From assembly GCF_900156825.1 (NCBI RefSeq), contig NZ_FTOV01000011.1, positions 1 to 64,000 of the forward strand: a stretch of DNA of 64,000 nt, read 5' to 3'. The translations under genes and the position numbers were made by a program. This document shows, piece by piece, positions 16,869-24,986 of this stretch (the first letter of the stretch is position 1; each line of letters opens with the position of its first letter). A model generated the notes under the pieces. That model was not told the DNA's origin and ran no database searches. It was given only the letters and a program-made list of their open reading frames with translations. The DNA comes from Chryseobacterium gambrini (GTDB lineage: Bacteria; Bacteroidota; Bacteroidia; Flavobacteriales; Weeksellaceae).

Positions 16869-19484
16869 TTAAATCAATAATCTTGGCTTCAAAAGCTTGG
16901 CAACCGTAGCTGTCCATCCCGTCTGGTGAGAAGCTCCTACGCCGCGTCCGTTATCACCGTGAAAATATTCGAAAAAGGTAATGTAATCTTTAAAATTTTC
17001 ATCGTAGTTAAATTTAGCATTTCCTCCGTTGAAAGCACGTTCTCCATTCTCGTCTTTTAGGAAAATAGAACAAAGTCTGTTGCTGATATCGTGAGCGACT
17101 TCATCCAGATTTTTCTTCTCACCGCTTCCGGTCGGCAATTCCACTTTCATGCTGTTTCCGTAATAGAAATGGAATCTCTGCAAACTTTCTACAATCAGGA
17201 AATTGATCGGGAACCAGATCGGACCGCGCCAGTTGCTGTTCCCCCCGAACATTCGGCTGTCACTTTCTGCAGGCGTATAATAAACTACATTTTCAGTGCT
17301 GTGAACAGAAAATTTGAACGGTTTTTCTTCATATACCTTAGACATTGCCCGAATTCCGTATTGGCTTAAAAATTCTTTCTCATCAAGCATTCTGGTCAAA
17401 ACTTTTGTCAGACGGTTTTTCCTCAGAATACTCATCAGATGCTTTCTTCCATGCCCTTCCTCTTCCCAGTGCGAAACAAGTTTCGTGAGTTCAGGTTTGT
17501 TTTTCAGAATCCAATCCATTCTGGTGGTAAAGTTTGGCATTTTATCCAACAGATGATGATCTATGATTTCCACGGCAAACATAGGAATCAATCCTACAAT
17601 ACTTCTCAGCTTCAGGGAAACACTGTCGCCGTTCCCGAGCTGAAGCACATCGTAGAAAAAGCCGTCTTCTTCGTTCCAGAGTCCTTTTGTGCCTTCACCC
17701 AGATTTTCCATGGCTTCAGCGATATAAAGGTAATGCTCAAAAAATTTAATCGCCATATCTTCATACACCTGATAATACTGAGCCAGTTCCATGGCAATTC
17801 GCATCATATTCAGAGCGTACATTGCCATCCAGCTCGTTCCGTCGGCCTGCTCCAGATGCTGTCCGTCTTTTAACACCATATTCCGGTCAAAAGCCCCGAT
17901 ATTATCAAGCCCGAGAAAACCTCCCCCGAAAATATTCTTTCCGTTTTTATCTTTTCGGTTTACCCACCAGGTGAAATTCAGCAGTAATTTCTGAAAAACC
18001 TTTTCTAAAAATAAAAGATCAGGTTTGCCGTTTTGCTTTTCATCAATTTTAAATACTCGGAAGCACGACCACGCATGAACGGGCGGGTTTACATCGCTCA
18101 GATTCCATTCGTAGGCAGGAAGCTGTCCGTTCGGATGCATATACCATTCTTTTGTTAATAAAAGAAGCTGCCCTTTCGCAAATTCCGCATCAATAATCGC
18201 AAACGGAACACAATGGAAGGCAAGATCCCAAGTTGCATACCAGGGATATTCCCATTTATCAGGCATCGAGATGATGTCTTTATTGTGCATATGATTCCAC
18301 TCTGTATTTCGTACATAATGGTTAAAATTTCTTGGAGCTTCAAAATTCGGATCGCCTTTCAGCCATTTTCCGACATTATAGTGATAAAACTGCTTGTTCC
18401 AGAGAAGTCCCGCAAAAGCCTGTCTTTGCACGTTTTTTTCATCGTCATCAGAAACATCATTCTGAATTTCGGCATAAAATTCATCCGCTTCAGCAACTCT
18501 GCTGCTAAAGATCTCATCAAATTCATAAAACGGATTCTCCAGTTCATTGGGAGACAATCTGAAATCAAACGTTTTCGATTGTCCGGCTTCAATAACTTCG
18601 TCAATTAAAAAAGAAGCTTTTGTTCCTCTCTTTTCAGGATTCACGGTGTTGCTTCCGTAAGTAATATAATCGTTGATGCCATCCTTGTAATAAGTATTTC
18701 CCGGATAGGGTGTTCCATATAATTTCGGACTGTTGGTTTCATTATCACAGAAAACACTTTCCGCAGAAATATTTCTTGAATAAAACTTTTTTATCGGGAC
18801 ACTGTCGTGGTTGATGGTGATGCAGCCTTCATGAGAAGCATTGATTTGTCCTTTATACGTATTGTAACCCCATTTCCAGTTATTTCTGAACCACACCGTG
18901 GGAGCCACTACAATCGGAGCCACTATATTGCTTCTGTTGCAGACCGTTACTCTTACTAAAATATCGTTGTATTCTGCTTTAGCGTACTCTATAAAAATAT
19001 CAAAATATTCATCCTGATCAAAAATTCCGGTGTCGAAAATTTCATATTCCGCTTCCTTTTTACTTCTTTTTCCATTTTCAGAAAGCAGTTCATCATACGG
19101 AAACGCATTAATCGGATATTTGTACACCATTTTCATATAGCTGTGAGTAGGTGTATTATCCAGATAATAAAATAGTTCTTTAATGTCTTCTCCGTGATTT
19201 CCCTGTGGATTGCTCAGTCCAAAAAAGCGCTCTTTCACCATCTTATCTTTTTTGTTCCAGAACGAAAGCGCAAAACAGAAAAGCTGCTTTGCATCAGAAA
19301 TTCCCGCTATCCCTTCCTCTCCCCAACGGTAGGCATAGCTTTCTGCGTTATTGTGATTGGCGAAATTCCATGCATCGCCGTTTGGGCTGTAGTCTTCGCG
19401 TACATTTCCCCATTGCCGGTTACTCACGTAAGGTCCCCAGTTTTTCCAGTTTGTGTCTTGTAATCTTTGTTTTTCAGCAATCAT
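16869..19484 (-). CDS. GH63-like (MGH1-type) glucosidase
   Basis: This 871-residue protein has no signal peptide and so is probably cytoplasmic. It resembles bacterial GH63 / mannosylglycerate-hydrolase-like enzymes with an N-terminal beta domain and a C-terminal (alpha/alpha)6 barrel. Visible barrel motifs are KWEYPWYATWDLAFHCVPFA, the LPAYEWNLSDVNPPVHAW segment, LEQADGTSWMAMYALNM and GGNSNWRGPIWFPINFL. Acidic residues in the WDL and EW/SDVNP segments are candidates for catalysis. It would hydrolyse an alpha-glucoside, possibly a compatible-solute glucoside. It stands alone, with its own promoter and terminator. Confidence 0.85.
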   Translation of the reverse strand: MIAEKQRLQDTNWKNWGPYVSNRQWGNVREDYSPNGDAWNFANHNNAESYAYRWGEEGIAGISDAKQLFCFALSFWNKKDKMVKERFFGLSNPQGNHGEDIKELFYYLDNTPTHSYMKMVYKYPINAFPYDELLSENGKRSKKEAEYEIFDTGIFDQDEYFDIFIEYAKAEYNDILVRVTVCNRSNIVAPIVVAPTVWFRNNWKWGYNTYKGQINASHEGCITINHDSVPIKKFYSRNISAESVFCDNETNSPKLYGTPYPGNTYYKDGINDYITYGSNTVNPEKRGTKASFLIDEVIEAGQSKTFDFRLSPNELENPFYEFDEIFSSRVAEADEFYAEIQNDVSDDDEKNVQRQAFAGLLWNKQFYHYNVGKWLKGDPNFEAPRNFNHYVRNTEWNHMHNKDIISMPDKWEYPWYATWDLAFHCVPFAIIDAEFAKGQLLLLTKEWYMHPNGQLPAYEWNLSDVNPPVHAWSCFRVFKIDEKQNGKPDLLFLEKVFQKLLLNFTWWVNRKDKNGKNIFGGGFLGLDNIGAFDRNMVLKDGQHLEQADGTSWMAMYALNMMRIAMELAQYYQVYEDMAIKFFEHYLYIAEAMENLGEGTKGLWNEEDGFFYDVLQLGNGDSVSLKLRSIVGLIPMFAVEIIDHHLLDKMPNFTTRMDWILKNKPELTKLVSHWEEEGHGRKHLMSILRKNRLTKVLTRMLDEKEFLSQYGIRAMSKVYEEKPFKFSVHSTENVVYYTPAESDSRMFGGNSNWRGPIWFPINFLIVESLQRFHFYYGNSMKVELPTGSGEKKNLDEVAHDISNRLCSIFLKDENGERAFNGGNAKFNYDENFKDYITFFEYFHGDNGRGVGASHQTGWTATVAKLLKPRLLI

Positions 19485-19502
19485 ATCTCATCATTTTCAT
19501 TA

Positions 19503-19533
19503 CGAAGTTAGTTTTTTTGCGAAAAAATTCCAA
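19503..19533 (-). promoter_or_regulatory. Promoter of the GH63-like gene
   Basis: On the minus strand TTG (19531-19533) is followed by 20 bases and then TAACTTCG (19503-19510), one base off TAnnTTTG. It lies 19 bases upstream of the start codon. Confidence 0.5.
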
Positions 19534-19636
19534 CTCATGAAATTTGAATTATTATTAATATTTCCCTGAAAGCCTTCTGTTTATCGAGGTTTGTAAGATT
19601 AAATTAAATTTTTATAAATATTTAAAAGAAAAGTTT

Positions 19637-19644
19637 TATCTTTG
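19637..19644 (+). promoter_or_regulatory. -7 promoter element of the methionine transcript
   Basis: TATCTTTG followed by CACC is a classic Bacteroidetes -7 element. It would start transcription near 19651, just upstream of the riboswitch. No clear -33 TTTG is present in the AT-rich sequence before it. Confidence 0.6.
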
Positions 19645-19673
19645 CACCATTCGTTCATTCAAATATTGAAAAT

Positions 19674-19777
19674 GTTATCAAGAAAGGTTGAGGGATTAGA
19701 CCCTATGAAACCTTAGCAACCCTTTGCGCAAGCAATGAAGGTGCTACGTTCTACCAGAATTATTTTGGACAGATAAC
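19674..19777 (+). ncRNA. SAM-I (S-box) riboswitch aptamer
   Basis: The 5' part, GTTATCAAGAAAGGTTGAGG followed by GATTAGACCCTATGAAACC and TTAGCAACC, matches the S-box core. AAGGTGCTAcgTTCTACC is the conserved P3/P4 region. P1 is GTTATC (19674-19679) with GATAAC (19772-19777). The aptamer binds S-adenosylmethionine and here precedes the metX-like gene. No T-tracted terminator lies between aptamer and gene, so control is probably at translation. Confidence 0.92.
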
Positions 19778-19808
19778 TCACTGAAGTTCTTTCAGCCATT
19801 TCCTGTGG

Positions 19809-19843
19809 CATTTTCAATTGTATTAAAATAATAGAATTGAAAA
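19809..19843 (+). promoter_or_regulatory. Possible riboswitch expression platform at the metX start codon
   Basis: TTTTCAATT (19811-19819) can pair with AATTGAAAA (19835-19843), which contains the TTG start codon. CATTTTCAAT (19809-19818) can instead pair with ATTGAAAATG (19665-19674), just 5' of the aptamer. The two pairings exclude each other. This is inferred from complementarity only. Confidence 0.4.
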
Positions 19844-20784
19844 CAGAACTTAAACATATTAATTTTTCGTATCGTACCTATTCCCAAAAGGAATACAATA
19901 TCCCGTTGAGCTATCAGCTTTTCGGGAAAGACCTGTTTTCTGCCCCGATCATTTTAGTGAATCATGCTTTAACCGGAAATTCCAATGTTTCCGGAGAAAA
20001 AGGATGGTGGAAACAACTGGTTGGAGAACATCAGGTAATCGATACCGACCAATATACAGTTCTGTGCTTCAATATTCCCGGAAACGGATTTGATGATTTT
20101 TTTATTGATGAATGTGAAGATTTCACGCCTTCAGATATAGCAAACATATTTTTGAAAGGTCTTGAAATTTTAAATATCAAAAGTTTACACGCCATTATTG
20201 GAGGTTCTTTAGGAGGCGGAATCGGTTGGGAAATGCTGGTAAAAAAGCCACATCTTGCCGAAATTTTCATCCCGGTAGCCTGCGATTTTAAAACCCACGA
20301 CTGGCTTCATGCACAGTGTCTGGTTCAGAAATTCTTGTTAAACCAAAACGATGAACCTTTACAGAAAGCCAGAATTCATGCAATGTTGTGTTACAGGACT
20401 CCTGAATCGTTAAATAGCAGATTTCAAAACAGATACAGTGAAGAAAAGCAGAGATTAGAGTCGGAAGACTGGCTTGTTTATCACGGAAAAGCTTTAAACG
20501 AAAGATTTAGTTTAAAATCATATAAGCTCATGAATCATTTGCTGATGAACATCAATACCAATGAAGAACATTTGGAAAAAATTCAGGCGCGAATGCACAT
20601 GATCTCTGTAGATACAGATTTATTTTTCCCTGCTTCAGAAATCCGAATGTGTTTTGAAAAGCTGAAAGAGAAAAACAAAGATGTTTTCTATCACGAGATC
20701 ACCTCAGTTCATGGGCACGATGCCTTCTTAATGGAATATAAACAATTAAATACGATCATTAAAAATATTTTGAAAAATGAGTAA
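19837..20784 (+). CDS. metX: Homoserine O-acetyltransferase-like alpha/beta hydrolase
   Basis: This 315-residue alpha/beta hydrolase has the nucleophile elbow GGSLGGG (Ser124), a probable acid Asp261 in SVDTDLFFP and His294 in VHGHDAFL. NHALTGNS (residues 42-49) forms the oxyanion side. This is the MetX pattern: transfer of acetyl from acetyl-CoA to homoserine, the entry to methionine synthesis. It is shorter than typical MetX (about 350-380). The riboswitch and the downstream methionine genes support the role. The start is TTG; no ATG occurs before the conserved N-terminus. It overlaps the next gene by 8 bases. Confidence 0.85.
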   Translation: MKTELKHINFSYRTYSQKEYNIPLSYQLFGKDLFSAPIILVNHALTGNSNVSGEKGWWKQLVGEHQVIDTDQYTVLCFNIPGNGFDDFFIDECEDFTPSDIANIFLKGLEILNIKSLHAIIGGSLGGGIGWEMLVKKPHLAEIFIPVACDFKTHDWLHAQCLVQKFLLNQNDEPLQKARIHAMLCYRTPESLNSRFQNRYSEEKQRLESEDWLVYHGKALNERFSLKSYKLMNHLLMNINTNEEHLEKIQARMHMISVDTDLFFPASEIRMCFEKLKEKNKDVFYHEITSVHGHDAFLMEYKQLNTIIKNILKNE

Positions 20785-22321
20785 GATTAATGCTAAAGAA
20801 ATAAAATTTTTAAAAAACAGATCCATCATCAAATTTGAAGGAGAAGATTTCTTGGGTGAAATCGGGATTGACGGACGAATTTTTAAAGCGCTTACTTTGG
20901 CGCGAATCAGTGTGGGAGTAATTTCCCAGCAGGCAATTGAAAACGGAATCTCCATTTTAGTTCATGAAAACGATTCCGAAAAAGCAGTCAATTGTCTGAT
21001 TGACGAATTTGAACCAGAAAGAAAATCGGGGAAAGTTTCCCAGATTTACAGCATCAATAATGTGTCGGTGTTAGGATTTGTTGCAGAGGACTTCAACAAA
21101 GTATTGGCGGAACTCGCAAGAAATAATGTCTTTCCATTGCTTTTGAACCAGATTGCAGCCGAAAAACGTGTAAATATCGTTGTGACATCTTCACAGGACG
21201 AAAAAGCAAAAAATATCATCGAATCTGAAATTTCCAAAAAACCGAAAACCGTTCATCTGGCAATCATCGGTCACGGAAACGTAGGGAAAACCTTAATACA
21301 GCAGGTTTTGGAATCTTCGGAAGAAATTAAAAGACGAAAAAAAATAGACCTGAAAGTTGTTGCAGTCGCCAATTCCAGGAAAATAGCATTCAACAAAAAA
21401 GGATTCGACAGCAATTGGAATGATGAGGTTTTAACGGCAGAAAAACCTTCCGATGTTCAGGAGCTGATTAATTTCTCCAAAGAAAATCAGCTTGAAAATT
21501 TAATCGTTGTGGATAACACCGCAAGCAAAGACTTCGTAAAAAATTACCACACTTTGGCAGAAAACGGCTTCGATCTCGTTTCTTCCAACAAAATTTTCAA
21601 CACCCTTCCCATTTCAGAATACCGTCAACTAAGATATACGTTGAACAAAAACAACAGACGATATCTCTACGAAACCAATGTGGGAGCAGGTTTACCATTG
21701 ATCGACACCATTAAACTTCTACATCTTTCAGGAGAAAATATTACCAGAATTAAAGGCGTTTTCTCGGGAACATTAAGCTATGTTTTCAATAATTTTTCTT
21801 TAAGAGACGATAAGTTTTCCACCATCATCAATGAAGCGTTTGAAAAAGGATATACAGAACCCGATCCGAGAGAAGACCTGTCAGGAAACGATGTGGCAAG
21901 AAAATTATTGATTCTGGCGAGAGAATTAGACCTAATCAACGAATTTGAAGATATTAAAATTCAGAATCTGGTGCCGGAAAATCTGCTTTCTGTTTCCAAA
22001 TCAGAATTCCTTTCAAGACTGGACGAATTAGATGCGGAATATCAGAAAATCAAAGAAAATCAGGAAGAAGGACACGTTTTAAGATATGTGGGAGATCTTC
22101 ACGGAGATTTGCAGAAAGAAAAAGGAGAACTCGATGTGAAATTAATTTCCGTTCCGGCAACTTCCGCGTTAGGACAACTGAAAGGCTCAGATTCAATCTT
22201 CGAAATCTACACTGAAAGTTACGGTGAAAACCCAATTGTCATCATGGGAGCCGGAGCCGGCGCAATAGTTACGGCAAGAGGTGTATTCGGAGACATTTTA
22301 AGAGTAAGTGAAACGAAATAG
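20777..22321 (+). CDS. ACT-domain/homoserine dehydrogenase fusion without aspartate kinase domain
   Basis: This 514-residue protein has an N-terminal region of about 155 residues that looks like the paired ACT regulatory domains of aspartokinase (ISVGVISQQAIENGISILV and VSVLGFVAEDFNKVLAELA). A complete homoserine dehydrogenase follows: NAD(P)-binding IIGHGNVG (163-170), VSSNK, ETNVGAGLPLIDTI, GVFSGTLSYVFN and the family signature GYTEPDPREDLSGNDVARK. It reduces aspartate semialdehyde to homoserine, the substrate of the preceding enzyme. It resembles ThrA or MetL without the kinase catalytic domain. The kinase must be encoded elsewhere. Confidence 0.88.
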   Translation: MSKINAKEIKFLKNRSIIKFEGEDFLGEIGIDGRIFKALTLARISVGVISQQAIENGISILVHENDSEKAVNCLIDEFEPERKSGKVSQIYSINNVSVLGFVAEDFNKVLAELARNNVFPLLLNQIAAEKRVNIVVTSSQDEKAKNIIESEISKKPKTVHLAIIGHGNVGKTLIQQVLESSEEIKRRKKIDLKVVAVANSRKIAFNKKGFDSNWNDEVLTAEKPSDVQELINFSKENQLENLIVVDNTASKDFVKNYHTLAENGFDLVSSNKIFNTLPISEYRQLRYTLNKNNRRYLYETNVGAGLPLIDTIKLLHLSGENITRIKGVFSGTLSYVFNNFSLRDDKFSTIINEAFEKGYTEPDPREDLSGNDVARKLLILARELDLINEFEDIKIQNLVPENLLSVSKSEFLSRLDELDAEYQKIKENQEEGHVLRYVGDLHGDLQKEKGELDVKLISVPATSALGQLKGSDSIFEIYTESYGENPIVIMGAGAGAIVTARGVFGDILRVSETK

Positions 22322-22618: not shown

Positions 22619-23785
22619 ATGGAAAACGAAAATTTTGAAACCTTTGCCATAAGAACCCAGACTGAAAGAACCCAGTTTGATGAACATTCCACGCCTTTGT
22701 ATCTCACATCCAGCTTTATTTTTCAGGATGCGGAAGACATGAGAGCGAGCTTTGCGGAAGAAAAACCAAAAAATTTATACAGCCGTTTTTCAAATCCGAA
22801 CGTAACAGAATTTACCGATAAAATTGCCAAAATGGAAGGCGCAGAAGCAGGGTATGCTTTTGCCACAGGAATGGCAGCGATTTACTCCACATTTGCGACT
22901 TTGTTAAATGCCGGAGATCATATTGTAAGCTGTCAGTCGGTTTTCGGTTCTACTCATACCTTATTCACAAAATATTTCCCGAAATGGAATATTGAAACAA
23001 CCTATTTTAAAGCAGAAGACGCCGAGAATGTTGAACAATATATTCAGCCCAATACAAAAATTCTGTATCTGGAAACACCTACCAATCCTGCGATTGAGGT
23101 TTTGGATTTAGAGTTTTTCGGACAGATTGCGAAGAAACACAACTTAATTTTTATTGTGGATAACTGCTTTGCGACACCTTATCTGCAACAACCGATAAAA
23201 TACGGAGCAGACATCGTTGTGCATTCCGCAACCAAGTTAATTGACGGACAAGGTCGTGTTTTAGGAGGAGTAGCGGTTGGAAGAGAAGATCTGATTCGTG
23301 AAATCTATCTTTTCGCCAGAAATACAGGTCCTGCCATGTCGCCTTTCAACGCCTGGGTTTTGTCTAAAAGTCTCGAAACACTGGCAATTCGTGTAGAAAA
23401 ACATTGCGAGAACGCTTTAAAAGTAGCTGAGTTTCTTGAAAATCATCCAAATGTAGAACTGGTAAAATATCCGTTCTTAAAATCTCATCCAAGCTATGAA
23501 ATTGCAAAAAAACAGATGAAATTAGGCGGAAACATCGTTGCCTTCGAAATCAAAGGCGGAATTGAAGGGGGGAGAAACTTTTTAGATAAAATAAAAATGT
23601 GTTCCCTTTCCGCAAACTTAGGCGATACGAGAACCATTGTAACACATCCTGCTTCTACAACGCACTCTAAACTATCAGACGAAGAAAGAAATGAAGTCGG
23701 AATTACTGCAGGTCTGGTTCGTTGTTCAGTAGGTCTGGAAAATGTGGAAGATATCATTGCAGATTTAAGACAGGCATTGGATTAA
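22619..23785 (+). CDS. metZ: O-acyl-homoserine sulfhydrylase / Cys-Met metabolism PLP enzyme
   Basis: This 388-residue enzyme is a Cys/Met-metabolism (cystathionine gamma-synthase-like) fold type I PLP enzyme. The PLP lysine is Lys206 in VVHSATKLIDGQGRVLGG. Other family motifs are YSRFSNPNV, FATGMAAI, ETPTNPAIEVLD, VDNCFATPYLQ and SLGDTRT-like NLGDTRTIVTHPASTTH. The GQGR context favours O-succinyl/O-acetylhomoserine sulfhydrylase (MetZ) over cystathionine synthase, but the acyl donor cannot be fixed from sequence. With the MetX-like enzyme next door, O-acetylhomoserine plus sulfide giving homocysteine is the likely reaction. Repeats flank the gene on both sides. Confidence 0.85.
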   Translation: MENENFETFAIRTQTERTQFDEHSTPLYLTSSFIFQDAEDMRASFAEEKPKNLYSRFSNPNVTEFTDKIAKMEGAEAGYAFATGMAAIYSTFATLLNAGDHIVSCQSVFGSTHTLFTKYFPKWNIETTYFKAEDAENVEQYIQPNTKILYLETPTNPAIEVLDLEFFGQIAKKHNLIFIVDNCFATPYLQQPIKYGADIVVHSATKLIDGQGRVLGGVAVGREDLIREIYLFARNTGPAMSPFNAWVLSKSLETLAIRVEKHCENALKVAEFLENHPNVELVKYPFLKSHPSYEIAKKQMKLGGNIVAFEIKGGIEGGRNFLDKIKMCSLSANLGDTRTIVTHPASTTHSKLSDEERNEVGITAGLVRCSVGLENVEDIIADLRQALD

Positions 23786-23975: not shown

Positions 23976-24986
23976 ATGAAAAATTCAGAACAACTATACA
24001 AAGCATTATCCGAAAGAATTTTAATTCTTGACGGAGCGATGGGAACCATGCTTCAGCGGTATAAATTCGAAGAAGAAGATTACCGTGGCGAACGTTTCAA
24101 AAACTGGGAACATCCGGTAAAAGGAAACAATGATTTGTTGTCTTTAACGCAGCCCCACGCAATAGAAGAAGTTCACAAAAAATACCTTGAAGCGGGAGCA
24201 GACATCATCGAGACCAATACATTTTCAGGAACAACCATTGCCATGGCAGATTATCACATGGAAGATCTCGTTTACGAACTGAATTACGAATCTGCAAAAA
24301 TTGCAAGAAAAGCCTGCGACGAGTACACCGCGAAAAATCCGGATAAACCAAGATTTGTGGCAGGTTCTATCGGTCCAACCAACAGAACCGCAAGTTTAAG
24401 TCCCGATGTAAACGATCCCGGATACAGAGCCATTACTTTTGATGAACTGAGAATCGCTTACAAACAACAGTGCGAAGCTTTATTGGACGGAGGATCAGAT
24501 ATTCTTTTGGTAGAAACCATTTTCGATACATTGAATGCAAAAGCAGCCCTTTTCGCCATTGACGAACTTCAGGACGAAAGAAATATCAAGATTCCAATCA
24601 TGGTTTCAGGAACCATTACCGACGCTTCAGGAAGAACATTGAGCGGACAGACAGCAGAAGCATTTCTGATCTCAGTTTCCCATTTAAACCTTTTAAGTGT
24701 AGGTTTTAACTGCGCTTTGGGAGCAAACCAATTGACGCCTTATCTGGAGACTTTAGCCCACAATTCAGAATTTGCTGTTTCAGCTTATCCGAACGCAGGT
24801 CTACCAAATGCTTTCGGGAAGTATGATGAAACTCCGGAAGATATGGCGAGTCAGATCAAAGAATACGTCGAAAAAGGATTAATCAACATCATTGGAGGCT
24901 GCTGCGGAACAACGCCGGAACACATCAAGGCAATTGCAGATCTGGTTTCGCAATATCCGCCAAGAAAATTGAGAGAATTGGTCTGA
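23976..24986 (+). CDS. Methionine synthase, homocysteine-binding half (split MetH N-terminus)
   Basis: This 336-residue protein equals the N-terminal homocysteine S-methyltransferase domain of cobalamin-dependent Met[25 protein letters not shown] (18-41) opens the barrel. The zinc ligands are Cys246 in GFNCALGA and Cys309/Cys310 in [12 protein letters not shown]. The reading frame ends there, where a full-length MetH would continue into the pterin-binding domain; the remaining domains are encoded at 26167-28833. Splitting MetH this way is known in Bacteroidetes. A desaturase gene separates the halves here. Confidence 0.92.

Follow-up and report, generated by a model that had tools for sequence, protein, structure and literature searches.

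How a SAM-I (S-box) aptamer passes its ligand state on to the metX-like gene behind it is the question raised by this locus of Chryseobacterium gambrini. A first-pass annotation had noticed that one linker segment could pair either with the leader or with the start codon region, and had left the direction of control unclear. We examined the locus within the window, i.e., the whole stretch of 64,000 nucleotides analysed here, and compared it with SAM-I loci of the genus, family, order and class. These labels follow the taxonomy of the genome search, in which Chryseobacterium belongs to the Weeksellaceae and the Flavobacteriales.

The SAM-I aptamer and the genes behind it

The annotation had placed an S-box core between the two paired segments, which is borne out by a match to RF00162. 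The aptamer sits upstream of methionine genes, namely the metX-like gene followed by genes for a homoserine dehydrogenase, a Cys/Met PLP enzyme and a homocysteine methyltransferase:

19637-19644, forward strand: promoter element of the -10 type, TATCTTTG (TAnnTTTG), recognised from sequence
19672-19779, forward strand: SAM-I (S-box) aptamer (RF00162, 77.3 bits at a cut-off of 44.4, E 3.1e-17, full model 1-108)
19674-19679 with 19773-19778, forward strand: P1 core of the aptamer, its pairs also present in the computed fold
19837-20784, forward strand: metX-like gene, homoserine O-acyltransferase family, TTG start (Abhydrolase_1 above its cut-off)
20777-22321, forward strand: ACT-homoserine dehydrogenase (profile matches)
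22619-23785, forward strand: Cys/Met PLP enzyme (profile matches)
23976-24986, forward strand: homocysteine S-methyltransferase domain (profile matches)

Against MetX models, the metX-like protein scores well below the curated cut-offs (at best 149.4 versus 331 bits); judged by its sequence, it is probably a divergent short form of MetX. The end of its gene shares 8 bases with the homoserine dehydrogenase reading frame. The dehydrogenase carries ACT domains and aligns to the second half of the bifunctional aspartate kinase/homoserine dehydrogenase, without the kinase part. Among the named loci found, the closest is that of Chryseobacterium mucoviscidosis (98% protein identity).

TAnnTTTG at -12 to -5 is the flavobacterial promoter consensus (PMC9723704). 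From the element at 19637-19644 a transcript start would be predicted near 19649, giving a leader of 188 nt, so that the 5' leader strand discussed below would belong to the transcript. Close to this predicted start, GTTCATT (19653-19659) is recurrent in family leaders and GTTCA is found at a similar spot in several leaders of the order, both as judged by eye; no obvious pairing partner was seen for 19653-19659.

One linker strand and its two partners

Folding and duplex searches defined the following elements between the leader and the first codons of metX:

19665-19689, forward strand: antisequestor 5' strand, made of leader, P1 5' strand, J1/2 and P2 5' strand (duplex search; coverage in relatives)
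19794-19818, forward strand: switching strand in the linker, predicted to pair with 19665-19689 (ON) or, via 19811-19819, with the start codon region (OFF)
19811-19843, forward strand: sequestor hairpin predicted to bury the UUG start (19811-19819 with 19835-19843; 19821-19825 with 19829-19833)
19784-19790 with 19845-19851, forward strand: closing helix AAGUUCU with AGAACUU, taking the predicted OFF state into codons 3-5 (fold)
19795-19799 with 19805-19809, forward strand: small hairpin GCCAU/GUGGC of the predicted OFF state (minimum-energy fold)

The 10-base match reported before is exact, ATTGAAAATG (19665-19674) being the reverse complement of CATTTTCAAT (19809-19818). With G-U pairs admitted, the duplex search extends it to 23 bp between 19665-19689 and 19794-19818 at -20.3 kcal/mol, an energy reached by 0 of 2000 shuffles (shuffled mean -8.5, sd 2.4). 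The paired bases are 19665-19677, 19679-19680 and 19682-19689 on the 5' side, and 19794-19797, 19799-19802 and 19804-19818 on the linker side. This does not agree with the previous description of an outer helix around an intact aptamer, as the pairing does not stop at the leader but takes in the 5' strands of P1 and P2 and J1/2 between them. The extension had been missed because only Watson-Crick pairs were considered; U-G and A-U pairs carry the helix to the P1 5' strand, beyond which it resumes in J1/2 and P2. Since it runs through all three elements, the SAM pocket would be dismantled rather than surrounded. We also considered that the linker complement might stem from a degenerate second aptamer in tandem, an idea dropped upon inspection only, since the strand is complementary to the 5' half.

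The second match is equally exact, TTTTCAATT (19811-19819) being the reverse complement of AATTGAAAA (19835-19843). The resulting sequestor comprises 14 bp with one G-G mismatch and a 3-nt loop, i.e., five pairs more than the nine described earlier. Folding of 19779-19870 yielded -21.2 kcal/mol (z -3.9), and the linker-start duplex of the window had a z of -4.6. Exact matches of at least 10 bases between leader (19649-19679) and linker (19781-19834) arose in 13 of 2000 dinucleotide shuffles, and matches of at least 9 bases between linker and start region in 83 of 2000. Each match alone is thus only moderately unlikely, and the case rests on conservation. The letters of the closing helix, AAGUUCU/AGAACUU, recur by eye in many genus leaders.

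Homology backs the TTG start proposed at 19837: among metX-type loci, 151 of the 156 with an assigned start begin with TTG and 5 with ATG (159 loci in total; the assignment rule favours the position aligned to the TTG of the window). The usual account of translational riboswitches is the hiding of a Shine-Dalgarno (SD) sequence. Here, AATAATAGAA lies ahead of the TTG, with no purine-rich SD such as GGAGG visible by eye, and what is hidden is the start codon. SD sequences are naturally missing from the mRNAs of Bacteroidetes, and in F. johnsoniae structure around the start contributes to the tuning of initiation (PMC6847099), which makes the start codon itself a sensible target for hiding.

Loci with an AUG start pair in a shifted register. 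In L120, L121 and L132, GCAACAUU can pair with AAUGUUGC (duplex computed for L120), and in L124 and L125 GUAGCAUUU can pair with AAAUGCUAC (duplex computed for L124), which suggests that the switching strand covers the start there too. An AUG start is also apparent in L113 and L122. Thus, in all three arrangements examined (UUG in L002, L080, L082 and L099; AUG in L120; AUG in L124), the second partner of the switching strand is the start codon region.

Conservation and co-variation in the Flavobacteriales

A SAM-I match was present in all 98 genus genomes searched, in 175 of 296 genomes of the order sample and in 210 of 295 of the class sample; metX was matched in 151 of the 197 genomes of the family sample. 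Loci L001 to L142 comprised 122 with a recognised S-box core before metX, 2 with no or partial metX and 18 with metX and no recognised core. Upon inspection, an S-box was found in 15 of these 18, which the regular expression for the core had overlooked, and none in L127, L128 and L129, the last of which has an ATG at the aligned start.

From 339 loci, 20 were dropped for lack of a recognised core, including family metX loci with a P1 ending in GTTATT, several of which were restored for the family leader alignment only. Six mislocated cores were also dropped (L266, L315, L317, L318, L334 and L336), and removal of identical or short rows left 261 rows. These include L001 (G000:C25:96779-96882, minus strand), the only other SAM-I match in the genome to which the window belongs, which lies upstream of a gene resembling a TonB-dependent receptor as judged by eye from the translation. 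It has almost no leader before P1 and therefore probably uses another platform; we omitted it from the model. Relatedness was reduced by k-mer filtering only, the statistics otherwise ignoring kinship, and the 113 genus rows are unique sequences, yet close relatives.

We compared the duplex of 5' arm and linker with 60 dinucleotide shuffles per locus. The mean z was -4.43 for metX loci of the genus (n = 113; 98% below -2) and -4.81 in other genera of the family (n = 46; 100%). It was -2.13 in the rest of the order (n = 76), where 45% lie below -2 and 55% fall short, and -0.37 in other orders of the class (n = 25; 12%). An interior-aptamer control gave -1.73, -0.61, 0.09 and 0.14 for genus, family, order and class, the genus value being non-zero with 42% below -2. 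In the control with the P1 3' strand, 14 nt also belong to the linker and self-pairing is possible, so the class value of -1.33 for this control is not taken as a sign of the classical design. Relative to the ATC at the end of P1, the paired stretch of the family extends from about -12 to +12, and in the order pairing is highest at -3 to +7. Moreover, across 41 family leaders identity is 90% or more at every position of TTGAAAATGTTAT in the 5' strand and of CATTTTCA in the linker.

The duplex of linker and start region stood out from its shuffles in the genus (mean z -2.70, n = 110) and the family (-2.48, n = 46), where a coding control gave +0.83 and +0.15. It was weak in the order (-0.84, n = 64; 11% below -2) and absent in the class (-0.03, n = 19).

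Within the order, 41 of the 76 loci carry a metH motif, with a mean z of -2.65 for the antisequestor duplex and 26 loci below -2, whereas the metH loci of other orders (n = 16) reach only -0.59, with 2 below -2. The design thus tracks the lineage rather than one gene. Order loci without the metH motif that were classed as 'other' (n = 21) had a mean z of -1.49, with 4 below -2; the remaining ones were five with PLP enzymes (-1.96), seven without a start (-1.17) and two metX-like (-1.81). Not all SAM-I leaders of the order show the design. In three loci of one family of the order (f7; L232, L237 and L287), the SAM-I leader precedes a protein starting with MKVSLERIDDGFGMLAKAGNHELRL or similar, which is no obvious methionine enzyme. 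Their linkers read CUUUCUC against GAGAAAG (L232, L237) or CUUUCUG against CAGAAAG (L287), and many other loci have CUUUCUU against AAGAAAG.

To assess co-variation, we exchanged linkers between loci and compared the duplex of each 5' arm with its own linker against those with the linkers of other loci, using de-replicated subsets of 56 (or 30) of the 76 order rows, 24 of the 159 family rows and 23 of the 25 class rows. For P1, J1/2 and P2 combined, the own linker in the order (n = 56) averaged -13.73 against -10.92 for the others (Z -9.1, 0 of 2000), and the signal persisted when swaps were confined to GC quintiles (Z -7.5 at n = 56 and -5.2 at n = 30, 0 of 5000 each). It was also found in the family (Z -3.4, 0 of 2000) and not in the class (Z -0.2, 882 of 2000). 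The leader part alone did not co-vary in this test (Z +1.5 in the order, +1.8 in the family). Two interior-aptamer segments, the P1 3' arm and a region further upstream were flat as swap controls; the P1 3' arm, having no swap signal, was rejected as a linker partner.

Swaps of linker against start region (46 order, 10 family and 17 class rows) gave Z -7.2 in the order, and -7.0 when stratified by GC (0 of 5000 each), with the order coding region (+20 to +43) as control at -0.1 and +0.4, respectively. In the family, Z was -3.0 (12 of 5000), and -1.8 (189 of 5000) within two GC strata; in the class it was -0.2 and -0.5.

Counting of pairs in the family alignment was less telling. For the antisequestor, 87.0% of the cells were paired, compared with 85.8 after shuffling and no more than 55.3 in slid versions, and four pairs had changed in both partners where 2.0 would be expected (a count reached in 30 of 500 shuffles). 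There were 15 two-sided cells against 6.4 (1 of 500), a number that the control slid by +1 also reached, and no excess of further pair types (439 of 500 shuffles). For the sequestor, 94.0% of cells were paired (shuffled 89.8), with 8 two-sided cells against 1.8 (0 of 500). The modest result for the antisequestor reflects how strongly the strand is conserved in the family, which is why we turned to the order-level swaps. Co-variation among leaders of related flavobacteria, proposed as a check on both helices, is thus present for both pairings at the level of the order by arm swaps, and modest by pair counting in the family.

Sign of control and competing explanations

Tests on the start codon were confined to loci for which a start had been assigned (156 of the 159 metX-type loci; by ORF search for the others). 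Length filters left 110, 46, 64 and 19 loci of genus, family, order and class for the start-region duplex and 110, 46, 65 and 22 for the forced and nascent folds; 10 metX loci were skipped for the probability of the outer helix with P1 forced.

Once P1 is imposed on the fold, the mean probability of the outer helix is only 0.003 in the genus (110 loci) and 0.006 in other genera of the family (39 loci), and pairing of the start window with the linker reaches 0.78 and 0.68, respectively. In unconstrained folds, the outer helix reaches 0.30 in the genus and 0.78 in the family, against 0.19 and 0.00 for P1. Forcing the antisequestor yields a higher accessibility of the start than forcing P1 does; this holds for 110 of 110 loci in the genus, 46 of 46 in the family, 55 of 65 in the order and 16 of 22 in the class. 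Thus, the antisequestor excludes P1 and the sequestor alike, both in the folding model and by co-variation. The proposal of two mutually exclusive pairings on one linker segment is thereby supported, and that of a translational platform acting on the start codon is well supported by the sequestor z, the exclusivity in the folding model and the co-variation.

The annotation had also remarked that the leader helix might need to be disrupted when SAM binds. The model agrees, since forcing P1 nearly abolishes it. The puzzle over the sign disappears once this helix is seen to be much longer and to take apart the SAM pocket: it is predicted to be an antisequestor that SAM binding must disrupt. SAM stabilises P1 and P2 in SAM-I aptamers and should therefore close the start, so that SAM is predicted to switch the gene OFF, as is usual for feedback in methionine synthesis.

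When nascent RNA ends just past the switching strand, the antisequestor is favoured over P1 in all 110 loci of the genus and all 46 of the family, in 60 of 65 of the order and in 6 of 22 of the class. In full-length RNA it has the lower energy in only 35 of 110 loci of the genus, but in 45 of 46 from the other family genera, in 50 of 65 from the order and in 3 of 22 from the class. For the full-length RNA of the window, accessibility of the start is 0.21 when free and 0.20 with P1 forced, and the unconstrained outer-helix probability is 0.09 against 0.34 for P1. As the equilibrium fold of the genus keeps the start closed even without SAM, the ON state needs kinetics or help. We infer that it arises from a co-transcriptional decision, from an energy model that underrates it, or with help from the ribosome.

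In our judgement, the locus is very likely a SAM-I riboswitch that acts on translation with OFF logic, its antisequestor strand being the complement of the 5' half of the aptamer itself. During transcription, linker 19794-19818 could anneal to leader, P1 5' strand, J1/2 and P2 5' strand (19665-19689), before the start codon exists. This would break P1 and P2 and free the UUG, and metX would be made when SAM is scarce. With SAM bound and P1/P2 locked, the linker would instead form hairpin 19795-19809, in which the P1/P2-invading part of the switching strand is hidden, together with sequestor 19811-19843. The start would be buried and initiation blocked.

The original form of the model, in which a 10-bp outer helix stacks coaxially with P1 on the SAM-bound aptamer and frees the start (SAM-ON), is extremely improbable. 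Its 10-bp match is exact, with identities of 90% or more across the 41 family leaders for most of the bases, but the near-zero probabilities with P1 forced led us to reject its coexistence with P1. Furthermore, the part that co-varies is P1, J1/2 and P2 and not the leader, and methionine genes would respond in the wrong direction. Slightly less improbable, yet still doubtful in the extreme, is the view of the strand as a conserved antisense-like element with its main effect on mRNA stability or on access of RNases, not of the ribosome: a 23-bp helix would be a possible double-strand processing site, but in each of the three arrangements examined the strand has the start codon region as its other partner.

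Transcription attenuation, with SAM favouring 19795-19809 and its AUUUUC as a terminator and the start-codon pairing secondary, also seems quite improbable. The view that no T-tracted terminator is present was nearly right. No strong one was found, but a scan of 19480-19960 returned a sole terminator-like site (shuffled mean 0.2 sites), the weak stem 19795-19809 with tail ATTTTCAATT. It has only 5 pairs (3 G-C) and four consecutive U in the AUUUUC, stems of other genera look shorter by eye (CUAC/GUAG, UACC/GGUA), and the start-region pairing co-varies in the order.

Beyond this locus, we favour, with distinctly less assurance than for the locus itself, a platform common to the Flavobacteriales lineage. 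Its switching strand would be complementary to the SAM-I 5' half (leader, P1, J1/2, P2) before at least metX and metH, the second partner being the start codon because there is no SD to hide. In metX, this would have fixed a UUG that completes the sequestor, and the register would have moved over the AUG in AUG genera.

Relation to known platforms and biological meaning

Terminator/antiterminator platforms of Bacillus share the SAM-I aptamer and the OFF logic and employ the P1 3' strand and an intrinsic terminator, whereas the Chryseobacterium locus uses the 5' side of P1 and no strong terminator was found. Sequestor/antisequestor OFF switches are already known, as is a translational SAM-I riboswitch that hides SD and AUG in Xanthomonas. 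The latter, SAM-IXcc of the X. campestris met operon (PMC7270179), likewise places a SAM-I aptamer before a methionine operon with OFF logic and conceals the start codon in an expression-platform hairpin in its SAM-bound state. However, SAM-IXcc conceals an SD in addition to its AUG, whereas no SD is seen in the Chryseobacterium start region, and uncharged initiator tRNA is another ligand of the Xanthomonas platform; an antisequestor from the 5' half of the aptamer is not described in the accessible part of that paper. Two exclusive pairings, with a ligand-enforced P1 that disrupts an antisequestor under OFF logic, correspond to the scheme of Barrick and Breaker 2007 (PMC2258182), according to which translation attenuation is the commonest mode outside Firmicutes. 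There, P1 bases are the usual switching element, to which Chryseobacterium adds leader, J1/2 and the P2 5' strand, and the accessible part describes no Bacteroidetes platform. A 2026 covariation study of whole riboswitches gives, in its accessible part, no significant aptamer-platform covariation for SAM (PMC13273304). Among the matches listed, we found no description of such a platform in the open-access literature. As far as these show, the antisequestor built on leader, P1, J1/2 and P2, its recurrence in Flavobacteriales and the direct occlusion of the start codon with a conserved UUG are new.

Taken together, the locus illustrates how, in mRNAs without an SD, translation could be placed under riboswitch control through direct masking of the start codon. 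Its relatives form a natural set with built-in variation, i.e., UUG and AUG starts and several registers. Moreover, one strand serves both ligand pocket and antisequestor; in this compact arrangement, sensing would vie with release for the same bases.
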